Virus record (IMG/VR): IMGVR_UViG_3300006916_000102
Span: 1 to 41,760 of that record
Length of the DNA: 41,760 bases
DNA from: a virus
Reading direction: 5' to 3' (one strand)
Position numbers and translations under genes: made by a program. Of the stretch, positions 8,204 to 34,556 are shown one piece after another. The stretch's first letter is position 1. Each line of letters begins with the position of its first letter. The notes beneath the pieces were generated by a model. That model was not told where the DNA came from, did not search any database, and saw only the letters and a list, made by a program, of their open reading frames with translations.

Positions 8204-9493
8204 TTATACAGAAAGGTTACCTGTTATTGAAATTTTGTTAACTGCACCAGCAAGAGTAGCTGTAAAATTAACACCAGAAAATAGTCTAGCTAATCTATCA
8301 GCTGAAGCAATTGAAGAAACATCAGGAACAGTAATAGTATATTGACCAACGCCATCAGCATCAGCAGCAATTAAACCATTTTCAACACCTTGATCTAATA
8401 TTTCTCTAATTTTATTTTCGATAATATCACCACCAGCATCAGTATAAGGAATTTTTTCAACATTAATTAATGTTGAATATAAATTTTCTTGAAGTCTTGC
8501 TTGTAACCAATCAGCTCCGCGAATAACATCGATATACTCACCAGAAGCAACATAACCTAATCTTGTAATACTTTGACTAGCAAAATTTTCATAAGTGTTT
8601 CCTTTGTTTATAAATACAGCTGAAGATTGAGAAGATATTAAATCATCTGGTAAAATTCCAACTAAGTTTTTAAAGGCCCAGTTAGATGAACCTGGAACAG
8701 TTGGTAACATTCTTCCAAGCCAAGCAGCATCAGCAAAATAATTTGCAGTATCACCATTATAAATGGTGGCTGTTCTGTCATAAGACAAAGCATTTAATTG
8801 ATATAAAATACTTCCGGTATCAGCTGAATCTAAGTTATCAGCATCAGAAGATCTTGCAAGAAAGAATCTTTTTAATGATTCAATTTTTCCTGCAGCACTT
8901 AAAATATCGGCTTCAACAGCAGAAGTAATTGCTAAAGCATACCAAGTAGAATTGAAATTGTAGCAATATTGAATTGCATTTGCCCAAGTTTCACTTAAAA
9001 CATAAGTTCCTGAACCGGTTGCAGGAGTTGCTGAAGGGGTAGAAGCAGCTGTAAATCTAATATTATCATCATCAATAACATCAGTAATTGTAAATGTTCC
9101 ATTATATTCAGCTTGATCAAATCCTAAAGTAGTTATTGACGCACCAACTTCAGCTTCAATACCAATACCGGCTAATTCTATATTAACAATATCACCTGAT
9201 GGATTAGTTGCTTCAGTGATTGCAGTAGAAGCTTTAACAACTTTTTTACCAATCATTATTGCAGCCGGAGTTTTTTCTTGTGAGAAGGCTGCTGTAGCCA
9301 TTTTATATTCTGGATCAGTAGAAGCAAAATCAACTGCAACTTCTGTCATATTAGCATAACTTTTAACTCTTGTATTTGCACCTAATTTCATTGACTCACC
9401 TAAAAACATAGGAGTTCCGAATCCGGCTTGAGTAATTGTTTTTGTTGAAAGACTAATTGAAATATCAATTATCTGATCTAATTTATTTGACAT
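8204..9493 (-). CDS. contractile tail sheath protein (DUF3383-like)
   Basis: A 429-residue protein that marks the phage as a myovirus. It shows the DUF3383 features: an early I-S-L-S segment, QAGFGTPMFLGE near residues 22-34, repeated strands in an inserted surface domain (about 100-165), and a C-terminal Gly/Ala-rich strand region ending in ISITGNLSV, which in sheaths makes the handshake with the next subunit. It is shorter than T4 gp18 but normal for DUF3383. It precedes the tube gene, as expected. Confidence 0.9.
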   Translation of the reverse strand: MSNKLDQIIDISISLSTKTITQAGFGTPMFLGESMKLGANTRVKSYANMTEVAVDFASTDPEYKMATAAFSQEKTPAAIMIGKKVVKASTAITEATNPSGDIVNIELAGIGIEAEVGASITTLGFDQAEYNGTFTITDVIDDDNIRFTAASTPSATPATGSGTYVLSETWANAIQYCYNFNSTWYALAITSAVEADILSAAGKIESLKRFFLARSSDADNLDSADTGSILYQLNALSYDRTATIYNGDTANYFADAAWLGRMLPTVPGSSNWAFKNLVGILPDDLISSQSSAVFINKGNTYENFASQSITRLGYVASGEYIDVIRGADWLQARLQENLYSTLINVEKIPYTDAGGDIIENKIREILDQGVENGLIAADADGVGQYTITVPDVSSIASADRLARLFSGVNFTATLAGAVNKISITGNLSV

Positions 9494-28398: not shown

Positions 28399-30342
28399 AT
28401 GGAAAATTTAGTAGTATTAGATTGTGAGGTTTATCCTAACTATTTTCTAGTAGCTTTTAAAAGCTTAGATTTAGGTAAAATAATTACAATAGAAATAAAA
28501 GGCGAAAATAATGTATTGGACAATGAATCCCATAGAAAGCTTAATACTATTATGCAAACAAGACATACTTTTGGTTTCAATAGCCGAAATTATGACATCC
28601 CCGTTATACTCTTTGCTCTAAGAAGAAAATCAGCCTCTCAAATTCATCAATTATCATCATTCATTATTGAAAATAATGCTTACGGTTGGCAAACCATGCA
28701 AAAATTCGGTTTAAATTGGGATAAAAATAAAATTAAACATTTTGATGTTCAAGAACCGGCTCCAGGCGTTAAAGTAAGCCTTAAGCTTTACGGTGGAAGA
28801 ATGCACTCAAAAAGATTGCAAGATCTTCCTATCGAGCCTAATTCAATGCTAACAGATAAAGAAATGCAAGATACATTACTTTATTGTATAAATGATCTTG
28901 ATACTACAATTGATCTTTATAATTCAATTAAAGATAGAATTGATTTACGTGTTGATATGTCAAAGCAATATGATCAAGATTTAATGAGTAAATCGGATGC
29001 TCAAATTGCAGAAGCTTTAATTAAATCAGAATTATCTAAGAAAAATCCACATAAAAACATAAAAGCGCCTAAATTACCAGATAATTTAAGTTTTAAACCT
29101 GATATTCCAGAATTTATTAAATTTGAAACAAAACAACTTCAAGATATTTTAGATATTATAAAGAATCATCATTTCAAATTAGATGCAAAAGGTTCTGTTA
29201 AATTACCACCTGAATTAAAAAAAGCTAAAATAGAAATAGGAAATTCTATTTATCAAATCGGAATCGGTGGTTTACATTCTACAGAAAGTAATCAAGCAAT
29301 GGTTCCTAAAGCTGATGAGCTATTAATTGATAAAGACGTAGCTTCATATTATCCTGCAATTATTGTTAATAATGATCTATATCCTAAACATTTAGGAACT
29401 GATTTTTTAGATGTTTATAAAGATATTATGGCCACAAGGCTTAAAGCTAAAAAAGAAGGAAATAAAGTTATTAATGAATCATTAAAGATTGTTTTAAATG
29501 GAACTTATGGTAAATTAGGTAGTAAATATTCAGTTATTTATTCGCCAGATTTATTGGTTACTGTAACACTTACCGGCCAATTATCTTTGTTAATGTTGAT
29601 CGAGAAGCTTGAATTAAAAGGAATTTCTGTTGTTTCAGCAAATACTGATGGTTTTGTTTCATTACTAAAAAAAGATCAATATGAGTTATATTCAATAGTT
29701 TGTTTTGACTGGGAATTAATAACAGGTTTTGATTTAGAAGAAAATAAATATAAAGGTTTATTTTCAAGAGATGTTAATAATTACTTTGCTATTACTGAAT
29801 ATGGAATAAAAAGAAAAGGAATTTTTGTTGTAGATGAGTTAAGTAAAAATCCAGGTGGCGCTATTTGTGTTAATGCTATAGTTGAATATTTAGTAAACAA
29901 AACTCCAATAGAAAAAACAATAAAAGAATGTAAAGATATAACTCAATTTTTATTAGTTAGAAGTGTTACAGGTGGAGCTGTTTTTAAAGATAAATATTTA
30001 GGAAGAGTTGTTAGATGGATTTATTCAACAAAAGGAAATACGATTACTTATAAAATAAGAGAAGATATTGATTTAACAGCTACTAGAAAAATCTTAAAAG
30101 AAAATAAAGATCAAATTAAACCTGAAAAATTTGATATTATAATTAAAGCTTCAAAAAAGCAATTAAAAGAAGTTTATTTTGAATATAGTAGATTTTTTGT
30201 AAATAAAATAACAAATCCTAAAGTGCCTAAATCTGAATATTCTAGGCCTATTATGGAGTTAAATGAATTTCCTGATGATATTGATTACAATAGATATATC
30301 GGGGAAGCTTTAGAAATATTAACAAACTTAGGAATGAAATGA
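28399..30342 (+). CDS. family B-type DNA polymerase with proofreading exonuclease
   Basis: A 647-residue polymerase. Exonuclease motifs: ExoI D8-C-E10, ExoII F-N61-SRNY-D66, ExoIII Y162-CIN-D166. Polymerase motif A is D313-VAS-YYP, motif B K363-IVL-N367-GTYG. Motif C reads S413-A-N-T-D417, so the first Asp of the usual D-T-D is Asn and the Tyr is Ser; the catalytic second Asp is kept. N-T-D forms occur in some phage polymerases, so activity is likely. It is compact, with no terminal-protein region recognised. The SSB gene lies just upstream. Confidence 0.88.
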   Translation: MENLVVLDCEVYPNYFLVAFKSLDLGKIITIEIKGENNVLDNESHRKLNTIMQTRHTFGFNSRNYDIPVILFALRRKSASQIHQLSSFIIENNAYGWQTMQKFGLNWDKNKIKHFDVQEPAPGVKVSLKLYGGRMHSKRLQDLPIEPNSMLTDKEMQDTLLYCINDLDTTIDLYNSIKDRIDLRVDMSKQYDQDLMSKSDAQIAEALIKSELSKKNPHKNIKAPKLPDNLSFKPDIPEFIKFETKQLQDILDIIKNHHFKLDAKGSVKLPPELKKAKIEIGNSIYQIGIGGLHSTESNQAMVPKADELLIDKDVASYYPAIIVNNDLYPKHLGTDFLDVYKDIMATRLKAKKEGNKVINESLKIVLNGTYGKLGSKYSVIYSPDLLVTVTLTGQLSLLMLIEKLELKGISVVSANTDGFVSLLKKDQYELYSIVCFDWELITGFDLEENKYKGLFSRDVNNYFAITEYGIKRKGIFVVDELSKNPGGAICVNAIVEYLVNKTPIEKTIKECKDITQFLLVRSVTGGAVFKDKYLGRVVRWIYSTKGNTITYKIREDIDLTATRKILKENKDQIKPEKFDIIIKASKKQLKEVYFEYSRFFVNKITNPKVPKSEYSRPIMELNEFPDDIDYNRYIGEALEILTNLGMK

Positions 30343-30834: not shown

Positions 30835-31320
30835 ATGTTTAAACCAGCTCAAGATATTCCAGAATTTATTCTTAAATTCATTAATGAAAGTAAGGCTATT
30901 GAAGGTATTTATAGGCCTGCTAGCGAAGCTGAAATTGAAACTGCTCTTAAGTTTCTTGATCTCAAGCAATTAACTTTAGCAGATTTAGAAAATTTTGTTT
31001 TAGTTTATCAACCTGATGCAAAATTACGTGATCAAATAGGCTTAAATGTTACTGTAGGAAATTATAGTCCACCAAAAGGCGGTCCTGAAATTAAGTTAAA
31101 TTTAGTTAGTTTTATTAATTCAATTAATGATAAATCAACTAATAAAGGTAAAGATCCTTTCTTAGCTCATAAGAAATTTGAGTCTTTACATCCATTTACT
31201 GATTGTAATGGAAGAACAGGAAGAATTATTTGGTTGTGGCAAATGCTAAAACTCAAGAAGAACTTTGCACCGCTTGGCTTCATGCAGTCTTGGTATTACC
31301 AATCGCTAAATAATAAATAA
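30835..31320 (+). CDS. Fic-domain protein with intrinsic inhibitory motif
   Basis: A 161-residue Fic protein. The catalytic loop is H119-PF-T-D123-C124-N125-G126-R127-TG-R130; the standard HPFx(D/E)GNGRxxR has Gly where this has Cys124. The flap region shows GNYSPPKGGPEIK (75-87), and the end (LGFMQSWYYQSL) is typical of a phage Fic group. Near the N-terminus S19-KAI-E23-G24 is the (S/T)xxxE(G/N) inhibitory motif that blocks ATP binding by pairing Glu with the loop Arg. Fic enzymes transfer AMP or other groups from nucleotides to protein hydroxyls. The target here is unknown. Confidence 0.85.
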   Translation: MFKPAQDIPEFILKFINESKAIEGIYRPASEAEIETALKFLDLKQLTLADLENFVLVYQPDAKLRDQIGLNVTVGNYSPPKGGPEIKLNLVSFINSINDKSTNKGKDPFLAHKKFESLHPFTDCNGRTGRIIWLWQMLKLKKNFAPLGFMQSWYYQSLNNK

Positions 31321-31407: not shown

Positions 31408-31659
31408 ATGATAAATAATACAATTACAAATGAAACAAAATTAGAGCTTAAAAATATGGTTGAAGAGGTTGAAAGATTGACTTCTCAAAAAGATCAAATT
31501 ACAAGTGAAATTAGAGAAACTTTTGAAGCAGCAGCAAATAAAGGATTTGATGTTAAAGCTATGAAAGAGGTAATTAAACTTCGCAAAAAAGATCCACAAA
31601 AAGCTATTAGTGAAGAAGATATGAGAGAACTTTACAAAGATTTATTAATTGAAATTTAA
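31408..31659 (+). CDS. GapR-like nucleoid protein (DUF2312)
   Basis: An 83-residue protein aligning by eye over its full length with alphaproteobacterial GapR: LKNMVEEVERLTSQKDQITSEI (first helix), then AANKGFDVKAMKEVIKLRKKD, with the conserved GFD and LRKKD, and a final short helix. GapR binds AT-rich, overtwisted DNA as a clamp and aids replication. A phage copy may manage its own AT-rich DNA or compete with the host protein. It has its own promoter, with the operator palindrome in the -10 box. It also marks an alphaproteobacterial host. Confidence 0.9.
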   Translation: MINNTITNETKLELKNMVEEVERLTSQKDQITSEIRETFEAAANKGFDVKAMKEVIKLRKKDPQKAISEEDMRELYKDLLIEI

Positions 31660-31667
31660 GGATAAGT

Positions 31668-31877
31668 ATGGAAACTAAAGATATTGAAAATATAATGGAT
31701 TTAATTGAGTTAACAAATAAAAATGCTAACGAAGGTAAATCTGAAGTTTTTGAACTTTCGCAAGCTGATGAATTAGATGAAAAAGAAAAATCTATTTCTA
31801 AAAAGTTTGATGAAATATTAGAAAATTTAGATGAAATTTATAAAATAATTCAATTTAAACATATAATAAAATGCTAA
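31668..31877 (+). CDS. small acidic helical protein
   Basis: A 69-residue acidic protein eight bases after the GapR-like gene, with an AAGGA-like ribosome site. It is helical, rich in Glu, Lys and Leu (MDLIELTNKN, ISKKFDEILENLDEIYKII). It overlaps the next gene by seven bases. No family recognised; its acidity and place next to a DNA-binding protein might suggest a partner, but that is only inference. Confidence 0.5.
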   Translation: METKDIENIMDLIELTNKNANEGKSEVFELSQADELDEKEKSISKKFDEILENLDEIYKIIQFKHIIKC

Positions 31878-32281
31878 ATTTAGTAAAACAAATGCACCAA
31901 AAATTTGGAATAACTTCTGATAAAGTAAAATTTTCTGATGAAGAAAAGAAATTTCGAATTTGTGCAATGCAAGAAGAATTGGACGAATATAAAGAAGCTA
32001 CCTCAAAAGAAGATGAGCTAGATGCTTTAGTTGATCTTGTTGTTTTTGCTTTAGGAACTGCTGAAAGGCAAGGTATGCTTGAAGTTTTTGATGAAGCTTT
32101 CTATAGAGTTATGATTGCAAATTGTAAAAAAGAGATCGGAACGAATCAAAAAAGAGGTTTGTTTCAACTGGATTTAGTAAAACCAAAGGGTTGGACTGCT
32201 CCAGATTTAAAAGATTTGGTTGAGGAAAAACCTCGCCAGATGACTTTATTTGATTATATCCCTGAACCTAAACAAAAATAA
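31871..32281 (+). CDS. MazG-like nucleotide pyrophosphohydrolase
   Basis: A 136-residue all-alpha NTP pyrophosphatase. The metal-binding E35-E36-xx-E39 (QEELDEY) and the E49-L-D51-xxx-D55 helix (DELDALVDLVVFALG) give the EExxE plus DELxDxxxD arrangement. Enzymes of this group hydrolyse NTPs or dNTPs to monophosphates. Here it sits at the head of a nucleotide cassette (thymidylate synthase-family enzyme, dCMP deaminase, DHFR), so removing an unwanted dNTP or supplying dNMP is plausible. Confidence 0.8.
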   Translation: MLNLVKQMHQKFGITSDKVKFSDEEKKFRICAMQEELDEYKEATSKEDELDALVDLVVFALGTAERQGMLEVFDEAFYRVMIANCKKEIGTNQKRGLFQLDLVKPKGWTAPDLKDLVEEKPRQMTLFDYIPEPKQK

Positions 32282-32283
32282 TT

Positions 32284-32574
32284 ATGCCAGATAAAATAGA
32301 AAAAACATTAAAAGAAAGAGAATCAGTTTATGGTGAGTTTGAAGATAATGCCGATATAACTCAAGAGTTAATCAAAGTTATTGAAAATGCTCCGAGTTAC
32401 TCAAAATTGAGTAAACAACATTTAGAAGCTTTCCACATGATTTTCCACAAAATTTCAAGAGCTGTTTGTGGTGATCCTGATTATATTGATAATATTCATG
32501 ATATAGTTGGCTACGCTAAACTTCTTGAAGATTTTTTAATTGAAAAACAAGCTTTAAAAAATGGCGAACTTTAA
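32284..32574 (+). CDS. DUF6378-like phage protein
   Basis: A 96-residue helical protein. The pattern LKERESVYGEFEDNADITQEL and HLEAFHMIFHKISRAVCGDPDYIDNIHDIVGYAKLLEDF matches small phage proteins of the DUF6378 group, with a conserved R-x-x-x-Y-G and H-D-x-x-G-Y-A. Function unknown; the helices and acidic residues resemble the MazG fold, perhaps a related phosphohydrolase. It overlaps the next gene by 14 bases. Confidence 0.7.
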   Translation: MPDKIEKTLKERESVYGEFEDNADITQELIKVIENAPSYSKLSKQHLEAFHMIFHKISRAVCGDPDYIDNIHDIVGYAKLLEDFLIEKQALKNGEL

Positions 32575-33391
32575 AGATATTTACAAAGATATTCTAATAA
32601 AAGTTTATGATCAAGGTGTTTGTGAAACTAATAAACGCACAAATACCTTGATCAAGGTTGCTAGAGAGCCTATATTTTTTAATATAGATTTAAGCAATAA
32701 CCTATTACCGATTGCCGGAAATAGAACTATTTGGCCACATATTGCAGCTGCAGAAGTAGCATGGCAAACTCAAGGAACTAAAGATCCAGAATTTATTCTT
32801 AAATATGCACCAAAATTATGGAGTAAATTTATTGAAGATGGTGAATTAAAATCTGCTTATGGTTACCGCTGGCATAAAAATTTTAATCGCGATCAAATAA
32901 AATTAGCTATTGAAGCATTAATAGAAGATCCAACTAATCGCCAGGTCTATATTTCAAACTGGGATCCGTCAACAGATGGATTAGGTGAGCCTAATCAGCC
33001 TAAAAATATTCCTTGCCCGCTTGGTTTTACACTAAATATTATTGATAATAAATTAAATATGTCAGTAATGATAAGATCATCGGATGTTTATGTAGGGCTT
33101 CCTTATGATGTTTTAGCTTATAGTTTAACTTTAGACTTAATTGCTAAAACTTTAGGTATATCAAAAGGAAATATTTCTTTTACTTTATCTCATGCCCATA
33201 TTTATCAGCCTCATTTTAAAGCTGTTGAAGAAAATTTAAGAGGTGATCAAACAGAATTTAAAGATATTAATATTGAATTTAAGCAAGCTACATATAGCCA
33301 GGTTCAAACTTATCCTGATGTTTTTGTTAAGGTTTATAAAGAAGAAAAAATTGAAAACTTTTGGAATCCTAAACCGGAAGTAATTGAATAA
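32561..33391 (+). CDS. thymidylate synthase-family enzyme, probably acting on dCMP
   Basis: A 276-residue ThyA-fold protein. Residues matching E. coli ThyA: E65, Y100, R127, catalytic Cys152 (NIPCPLGF), R172-S-S-D175, H213 and Y215. The key difference is GLPYD183: the Asn that reads the uracil base in ThyA (N177) is Asp here. The same Asn-to-Asp change is found in T4 dCMP hydroxymethylase and makes thymidylate synthase prefer dCMP. The residue after Cys152 is Pro rather than His. So it may be a dCMP methylase or hydroxymethylase. A nearby DHFR gene favours a reaction releasing dihydrofolate. Confidence 0.85.
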   Translation: MANFKDIYKDILIKVYDQGVCETNKRTNTLIKVAREPIFFNIDLSNNLLPIAGNRTIWPHIAAAEVAWQTQGTKDPEFILKYAPKLWSKFIEDGELKSAYGYRWHKNFNRDQIKLAIEALIEDPTNRQVYISNWDPSTDGLGEPNQPKNIPCPLGFTLNIIDNKLNMSVMIRSSDVYVGLPYDVLAYSLTLDLIAKTLGISKGNISFTLSHAHIYQPHFKAVEENLRGDQTEFKDINIEFKQATYSQVQTYPDVFVKVYKEEKIENFWNPKPEVIE

Positions 33392-33700: not shown

Positions 33701-34114
33701 ATGCAAAATAAATGGGACGAAAGATTTTATCAACTAGCAGAAACTGTTGCTAGTTGGTCTAAAGATAAAACAAAAGTAGGTTGTGCTTTAATTTCTCCAG
33801 ATCGAACTCAAGTTTCTTATGGATATAATGGTTTTCCTCGTGGAATAAAAGATGATGAAAGAATAACAGCTGAAAATAAAAATCAGTTAATAATTCATGC
33901 AGAAATTAATGCAATTTTGAATGCTAAAGTAAATTTAACCGGTTGGACGCTATATTGCACAAAATTTCCATGTATTGAGTGTGCAAAGGCTATAATTCAA
34001 AGCCATTTTAAGCGAATTGTGGTTAAACGACGTTTAGAGAGCTCCTGGGCAGATTCTCAACAGTTGGCTTATGATCTTATAAAAGAATCAAAAATAATCA
34101 TTTCTGAGGTATGA
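33701..34114 (+). CDS. dCMP deaminase
   Basis: A 137-residue zinc deaminase. The HAE motif (H66-A-E68, within HAEINAIL) and P90-C91-IE-C94 supply the zinc ligands and catalytic Glu. The N-terminal SKDKTKVGCALISPD segment is typical of the dCMP deaminase family. It converts dCMP to dUMP. Together with a ThyA-family enzyme and DHFR it forms a pyrimidine cassette. The size is normal for phage enzymes. Confidence 0.9.
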   Translation: MQNKWDERFYQLAETVASWSKDKTKVGCALISPDRTQVSYGYNGFPRGIKDDERITAENKNQLIIHAEINAILNAKVNLTGWTLYCTKFPCIECAKAIIQSHFKRIVVKRRLESSWADSQQLAYDLIKESKIIISEV

Positions 34115-34115
34115 T

Positions 34116-34556
34116 ATGCAACTAATTTTAGGGCTAAGTAAAAATAATTTTATAGCAAAGTCTGAAAATGACAATATGGAGTGGTTAAAAGCTGATAAAA
34201 ATGTATTTCGTCTTTTATCAGCTACAAACGGAGGTATTAATTATATTTCTATGAAAAGCGGCCGATTTATGCCGGAAATTTTACCCGGTAGAAAAATAAT
34301 TAAATTAAGTCGTAAAAGTTTAAATCTTGATATGGCTTATATGTTAAATAAAAAATCAAATTTATTAGGCGGGCAAACTTTAGCTTTAGAGGCAATTAAT
34401 AAAAATTATATTACTGATATATTTTTGACTTATACACCAATTGAGTTAAAAGAAGGAATTAAATTTAATCTTGATAATATTATTGCTGAAAAATTTAATC
34501 TTGCTCAAACAATAACTATTGATGGAATTATTGTTAAACATTGGAAATTAAAATAA
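34116..34556 (+). CDS. dihydrofolate reductase-like protein
   Basis: A 146-residue protein with a recognisable DHFR layout: ILGLSKNNFIA at the start, EWLKAD with the position of the active-site acid, ILPGRKIIKLSR (the PLPGRKN motif) and LLGGQTLALEAI (the GG of the NADPH site), then IFLTYTPIEL. It is shorter and more divergent than bacterial DHFR. It regenerates tetrahydrofolate after a reaction that oxidises it, as the ThyA-family methylation does. It starts one base after the deaminase stop. Confidence 0.82.
   Translation: MQLILGLSKNNFIAKSENDNMEWLKADKNVFRLLSATNGGINYISMKSGRFMPEILPGRKIIKLSRKSLNLDMAYMLNKKSNLLGGQTLALEAINKNYITDIFLTYTPIELKEGIKFNLDNIIAEKFNLAQTITIDGIIVKHWKLK

Follow-up and report, generated by a model that had tools for sequence, protein, structure and literature searches.

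A ThyA-family protein with aspartate at the base-selecting position in a viral contig is a probable deoxycytidylate methylase of the Xp12 kind

A ThyA-fold protein with a changed base-selecting residue

The window analyzed here, a stretch of 41,760 nucleotides of viral DNA (IMG/VR record IMGVR_UViG_3300006916_000102), encodes a thymidylate synthase (TS) homologue in which the asparagine that selects the base is replaced by aspartate. This raises the question of whether the enzyme acts on dUMP or on dCMP and, in the latter case, whether it transfers a methyl or a hydroxymethyl group. The initial annotation had proposed a dCMP-specific ThyA homologue leading to modified cytosine, with methyl preferred to hydroxymethyl on account of a nearby dihydrofolate reductase (DHFR) gene. 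The comparative evidence, from which we infer the substrate and the product, favors this reading: the gene product is probably an Xp12-type deoxycytidylate methylase, making 5-methyl-dCMP (probability of about 0.78).

The gene lies at positions 32561 to 33391 on the plus strand, as first reported, and encodes 276 residues, while the strand opposite this frame is rich in stops. The product matched PF00303 (7e-40) and the PHROG family of thymidylate synthases (PHROG 160, 5.8e-53). An AlphaFold2 model built from a 40-row alignment had a mean pLDDT of 92.7, and its top PDB matches were thymidylate synthases (Z of 29.8, root mean square deviation of 2.0 to 2.1 over 253 to 255 residues; Z of 29.7 to 1tys of Escherichia coli ThyA). 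The identity with E. coli ThyA was 23% in the alignment. The earlier statement that all TS catalytic residues are present is correct in essence, since Glu58, Tyr94, Cys146, Arg166, Asp169, His207, and Tyr209 of the E. coli enzyme are retained as E65, Y100, C152, R172, D175, H213, and Y215; with the profile match, these residues place the protein in the ThyA superfamily.

The alignments also confirmed that Asn177, the pyrimidine selector expected of a dUMP thymidylate synthase, corresponds to D183 (codon at 33107 to 33109, plus strand). They revealed three further active-site changes relative to E. coli ThyA that had not been described: Leu143 is N149 (33005 to 33007, plus strand; Asp145 in T4 gp42), His147 is P153, which follows the catalytic C152 (33014 to 33019, plus strand, for both codons), and R127, the second of the arginines that bind phosphate, is Q128. 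The C-terminal tail common to the window protein and E. coli ThyA (PEVIE at 33374 to 33388, plus strand, the counterpart of PVAI) is absent from T4 gp42.

An ordinary dUMP thymidylate synthase that tolerates Asp177 would suit the database names, including the annotations of the homologues of phages DLP4 and AXL1, and the deaminase and DHFR genes would then complete the classical dTMP pathway, dCMP deaminase-TS-DHFR, which is how this gene content is read in PMC6469090 and PMC9206674. We consider this very improbable, because TS acquires dCMP methylase activity when Asn177 is changed to Asp (Liu and Santi 1992 and others, cited in PMC8670742). Moreover, the 79 viral loci aligned after a search with E. 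coli ThyA all kept the Leu, His, and Asn of the E. coli enzyme at positions 143, 147, and 177, and the window protein stayed below the cut-off of each of the eight NCBIfam TS models that it matched (for example, TIGR03284, 87 against 108.35 bits).

Residue signatures and phylogeny of ThyA homologues

We described each homologue by its residues at E. coli ThyA positions 143, 147, and 177, position 143 standing three residues before the catalytic cysteine (Cys-3). ThyA proteins were extracted from 159 fetched loci and aligned, two loci giving none (L076, where the gene is absent, and L131, an identical copy), and identical proteins were removed ahead of the row counts. Five patterns were found, in addition to a single S-P-D row (L063). 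L-H-N is the pattern of ThyA from E. coli and from viruses (77 rows without identical copies). The N-P-D pattern is that of 53 rows, including the window (46 clusters after merging at 95% identity). D-T-D is carried by T4 gp42 and 8 viral loci, and D-N-N by the enzymes of SP8, M6, and PaMx11 and by one further locus (L070). Four cyanobacterial homologues (L071 to L074) showed S-L-N and formed a long branch in the tree. The loci of the N-P-D clade from the viral_contigs set were fetched with patterns that lacked the three signature columns, and Asp at 177 is common to the entire clade of window relatives, which is neither chance nor a local change.

A quick maximum-likelihood tree of 84 rows, with 13 of the 77 L-H-N rows included and the three signature columns retained, united the S-P-D row with 51 N-P-D rows in a single branch (SH-aLRT of 96). 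This branch contains the window, RDJL Phi 1, Tedan, PaMx28, DLP4, JWX, RcSimone-Hastad, and the Xp12-like phage YB23. The D-T-D rows of the T4 gp42 lineage formed a separate group (support of 97). In this tree, T4 gp42 and SP8 both had long branches. Two N-P-D rows from Patescibacteria records (L068 and L069) fell outside the main clade. Their thyA homologues adjoin a DHFR-like gene, and the contigs, labeled as Patescibacteria MAGs, are perhaps phage or prophage.

The residue at Cys-3 divides these groups. Among the 54 N-P-D and S-P-D rows it is Asn in 53, Ser in 1 (L063), and Asp in none, while Asp occurs in T4 gp42 and its 8 related rows and in SP8, M6, PaMx11, and L070. The CMP hydroxymethylase MilA has Asp at Cys-3, Thr after the cysteine, and Asp at 177 in the PDB alignment. 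The dUMP hydroxymethylase homologues of SP8, M6, and PaMx11, like MilA, share with the window protein the ThyA fold and, by its predicted activity, base modification at the nucleotide level, and all four differ from it in having Asp at Cys-3; at position 177, the former three have Asn. The PaMx11 phage hypermodifies its thymidine. Thymidine hypermodification is also described for Yuavirus phages (PMC11946847), and SP8 DNA contains hydroxymethyl-dU (PMC7653180). In the aligned sequences, Asp at Cys-3 accompanies hydroxymethylation irrespective of the base, and Asp at 177 accompanies cytosine. The window protein has the latter and lacks the former (N149). Asn at Cys-3 was absent from every experimentally characterized methylase that could be checked.

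These patterns bear on whether the protein could, like T4 gp42, be a hydroxymethylase of dCMP, with a 5-hydroxymethyl-dCMP product that is maybe decorated further. The initial annotation had pointed to the T4 enzyme, and part of that comparison stands: both proteins have the ThyA fold and Asp at the base-selecting position, a residue common to T4 gp42 and its 8 related rows, and viral contigs with such genes exist. As a guide to the product the comparison is misleading, since T4 gp42, which makes hydroxymethyl-dCMP, comes from a different lineage with Asp at this position. Asp183 alone would not tell a methyl from a hydroxymethyl product, a distinction that the residue at Cys-3 seems to provide. 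In T4 gp42 this residue, Asp145, is thought to activate the water that ends as the hydroxyl, and its change to Asn (D145N) abolishes activity (PMC6400193). The replacement of Asp by Asn, or once by Ser, throughout the clade of the window, the retention in this clade of a C-terminal tail (PEVIE or a similar sequence), the separate grouping of the D-T-D rows (which have Thr at 147), and the absence of glycosyl- and carbamoyltransferases among the window proteins scanned, a part of the window open reading frames, make a hydroxymethylase unlikely.

The combination of Asp177, a residue other than Asp at Cys-3, and a TS-like tail is that of the Xp12-kind methylase. The N-P-D clade thereby offers a specific gene, together with a rule based on residues by which dCMP methylases, dCMP and dUMP hydroxymethylases, and true thymidylate synthases could be separated. 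By this rule, modified cytosine would be predictable by sequence in many phages whose gene is annotated merely "thymidylate synthase."

Relation to Xp12 and evidence for modified cytosine

The enzyme kind is already known from Xp12, whose 5-methylcytosine has been known for decades. What is added here is the residue rule, the anatomy of the cassette, and a connection to this kind for the window and for many uncultured phages. Every cytosine of Xp12 DNA is 5-methylcytosine (PMC7653180), and both a dCMP methyltransferase (Feng 1978) and a 5-methyl-dCTP deaminase (Wang and Ehrlich 1982) of this phage are cited in PMC5175136 and PMC12088426. The clade link between the window and Xp12 goes via YB23, which is Xp12-like by its primer sites, the Xp12 gene itself being outside the tree. 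Both Xp12 qPCR primers of PMC8670742 matched YB23 with 0 mismatches, at facing sites about 106 bases apart, and residue 128 of the YB23 deaminase is Trp, under the same number as reported for Xp12. The thyA genes of YB23 and the window are 46% identical. YB23, standing here for Xp12 (Bosavirus, Mesyanzhinovviridae), shares with the window the ThyA clade, the N-P-D residues, and the MazG, deaminase, and DHFR genes, and the predicted product is 5-methyl-dCMP.

Our literature search found no assignment of the Xp12 methyltransferase activity to this gene. A 2022 paper on the close relative AXL1 calls the genetic mechanism unknown (PMC9206674), and the homologue of all Mesyanzhinovviridae is named a deoxyuridylate hydroxymethyltransferase in PMC11946847. 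Our residue comparison disagrees with this label for the N-P-D group.

The DNA of clade members is consistent with modified cytosine. DLP4 DNA resisted 36 of 36 restriction enzymes (PMC6469090) and AXL1 DNA all but 5 of 31, 3 of these 5 having A/T-only sites (PMC9206674). In the MetaGPA survey (PMC8670742), positions 177 and 147 ranked highest for association with modified cytosine, modified contigs carried mostly Asp177, and the co-occurring domains were TS, PRA-PH, dCMP deaminase, and MafB19-like deaminase; a Pfam scan detected these four domains in the window. It is likely, with less confidence than for the methylase itself, that 5-methylcytosine replaces cytosine in the virion DNA of the window phage.

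The thyA cassette

The MazG-like, dCMP-deaminase, and DHFR genes near thyA proved real by Pfam and PHROG matches (by PHROG only for DHFR). All genes of the cassette are on the plus strand. A MazG-like nucleotide pyrophosphohydrolase, possibly a dCTPase, lies at 31871 to 32281 (PF01503, 1.5e-4; PHROG 671, 4.3e-16), followed at 32284 to 32574 by a small DUF6378 protein that overlaps the thyA start (PF19905 at 7e-6, slightly under the cut-off, and a comparison of the same slot in relatives). Downstream are a dCMP-deaminase-family protein with HAE and PCxxC motifs at 33701 to 34114 (PF00383, 5.7e-23; PF14437, 5e-12; PHROG 174, 1.8e-38) and a DHFR-like protein at 34116 to 34556, which matched PHROG 13578 (3.1e-29) and no Pfam family.

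We counted neighbors within 5.5 kb of thyA in clusters merged at 95% identity, since the 53 N-P-D rows had some named phages twice; the S-P-D locus and the four S-L-N loci were left out. Deaminase, MazG, and DHFR genes were found in 41, 43, and 36 of the 46 N-P-D clusters and in 5, 3, and 7 of the 68 ordinary viral ThyA (L-H-N) clusters (Fisher test; P = 7.7e-20, 4.1e-24, and 1.4e-13, respectively, shared descent being ignored). After merging at 70% identity, the counts were 26, 28, and 23 of 31 N-P-D clusters and 4, 3, and 5 of 33 ordinary ones (P = 7.5e-9, 2.5e-11, and 2.9e-6). These contrasts are to be read with a bias toward detection on the N-P-D side, on which the neighbor profiles were built, and with a control fetched with E. 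coli ThyA, near host genes, with some flanks cut by contig ends. The seven D-T-D clusters had MazG once and neither of the other two genes, and 3 of the 4 D-N-N clusters had a deaminase. Six N-P-D loci had no deaminase match close by (L052 and L065 to L069).

The slot between MazG and thyA held mutually exclusive contents in the 53 N-P-D rows: in 24, MazG was fused to a dNMP-kinase-like domain, 19 had a "YFPFGH" domain, 6 had DUF6378, and 4 had none of these. YB23 has the "YFPFGH" domain and a MazG fusion, whereas MazG and DUF6378 are separate genes in the window. The nearest named relatives of the window ThyA include the "thymidylate synthases" of Roseobacter phage RDJL Phi 1 (47.6% identity, N-P-D, same cassette) and Ruegeria phage Tedan (53.2%, N-P-D). 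Both differ from the window in having MazG fused to the dNMP-kinase-like domain, and Tedan also in having no DHFR match near the gene. That DUF6378 and "YFPFGH" form a single family was rejected (hhalign probability of 0.2, separate profiles without cross-hits), so they are reported as two types. The structure model of DUF6378 was poor (pLDDT of 60.3).

The same neighbors could serve thymidylate supply only, with dCMP methylated and 5-methyl-dCMP deaminated to dTMP while virion cytosine stays ordinary. The deaminase is a constant partner of these genes, a title on a "new thymidylate biosynthesis" in Xp12-infected cells is cited (Kuo 1982, in PMC11946847 and PMC12088426), and searches of the window, a record that may be a fragment, detected neither ThyX, a second ThyA, nor a dNMP kinase. 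The frequency of MazG and the restriction resistance of relatives indicate cytosine replacement, and Xp12 does both, which leaves supply alone improbable, about on a level with the hydroxymethylase and perhaps slightly ahead of it.

Concerning the deaminase, Trp occupies the column of Xp12 W128 in the window and in 47 of 47 N-P-D deaminases. This residue was considered as a marker of 5-methyl-dCTP use and found conserved but not diagnostic, because Trp also occurs in 3 of 3 D-N-N deaminases and, among the 5 that neighbor ordinary ThyA, in 3, with gaps in the remaining 2.

Proposed pathway and its implications

For the preferred reading, a deoxycytidylate methylase, we propose the following reaction. 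Asp183 would orient and protonate cytosine, Cys152 would attack C6, and the one-carbon unit would come from methylene-tetrahydrofolate. Since Asn149 should be unable to activate the hydroxymethylase water and the TS-like tail would close the site, hydride transfer would follow, yielding 5-methyl-dCMP and dihydrofolate. Dihydrofolate as co-product fits the DHFR gene, whose product would regenerate tetrahydrofolate after the reductive methylation.

The inferred role of MazG is to remove dCTP and return dCMP, and a phage or host kinase would take 5-methyl-dCMP toward the triphosphate that replaces dCTP in replication. A C5 DNA methyltransferase was not found in the window, and DLP4 has a dNMP kinase reported elsewhere in its genome (PMC6469090). 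The deaminase may act on 5-methyl-dCMP or 5-methyl-dCTP, so that some of the 5-methyl-dC nucleotide pool would become thymidylate. A part in dTMP supply had been suggested for it through the host enzyme; the dUMP route that this implies is not required, since the Xp12 deaminase gives dTTP from 5-methyl-dCTP (PMC12088426).

A joint origin of thymidylate and 5-methylcytosine is plausible. The fuller proposal, of a mobile cassette in which one enzyme provides for both "C" and "T," with dCMP methylated first, 5-methyl-dC replacing dC, and the same pool deaminated to thymidylate, is tentative, and we give it somewhat less than even odds. If it is true, fully 5-methylcytosine-substituted DNA would be widespread among uncultured phages, and Asp as opposed to Asn or Leu at Cys-3 would predict hydroxymethyl or methyl transfer across ThyA homologues. 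Such substitution would bear on the interpretation of virome data, because many restriction enzymes fail to cut this DNA, which single-molecule sequencers should read as fully methylated.

Phage background

The cassette was seen in Mesyanzhinovviridae, in roseophages, and in the window, a low-GC phage (28.5%) with contractile-tail genes. Unlike Xp12, the window has such tail genes and a DNA polymerase (8204 to 9493, 1249 to 2694, and 28399 to 30342) whose best matches are not the cassette-sharing phages: the tail-sheath-like protein and the polymerase were closest, among the matches listed, to phages outside Mesyanzhinovviridae (33 to 42% identity). Together with a baseplate J-like protein, these matches make it probable that the thyA cassette has passed from one phage lineage to another.

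Two further genes were observed upstream of the cassette. A GapR-like DNA-binding protein (31408 to 31659; PF10073, 7.1e-19) hints at an alphaproteobacterial host, GapR being an alphaproteobacterial protein, and the early region encodes a Fic/DOC-family protein (30835 to 31320; PF02661, 2.6e-6).
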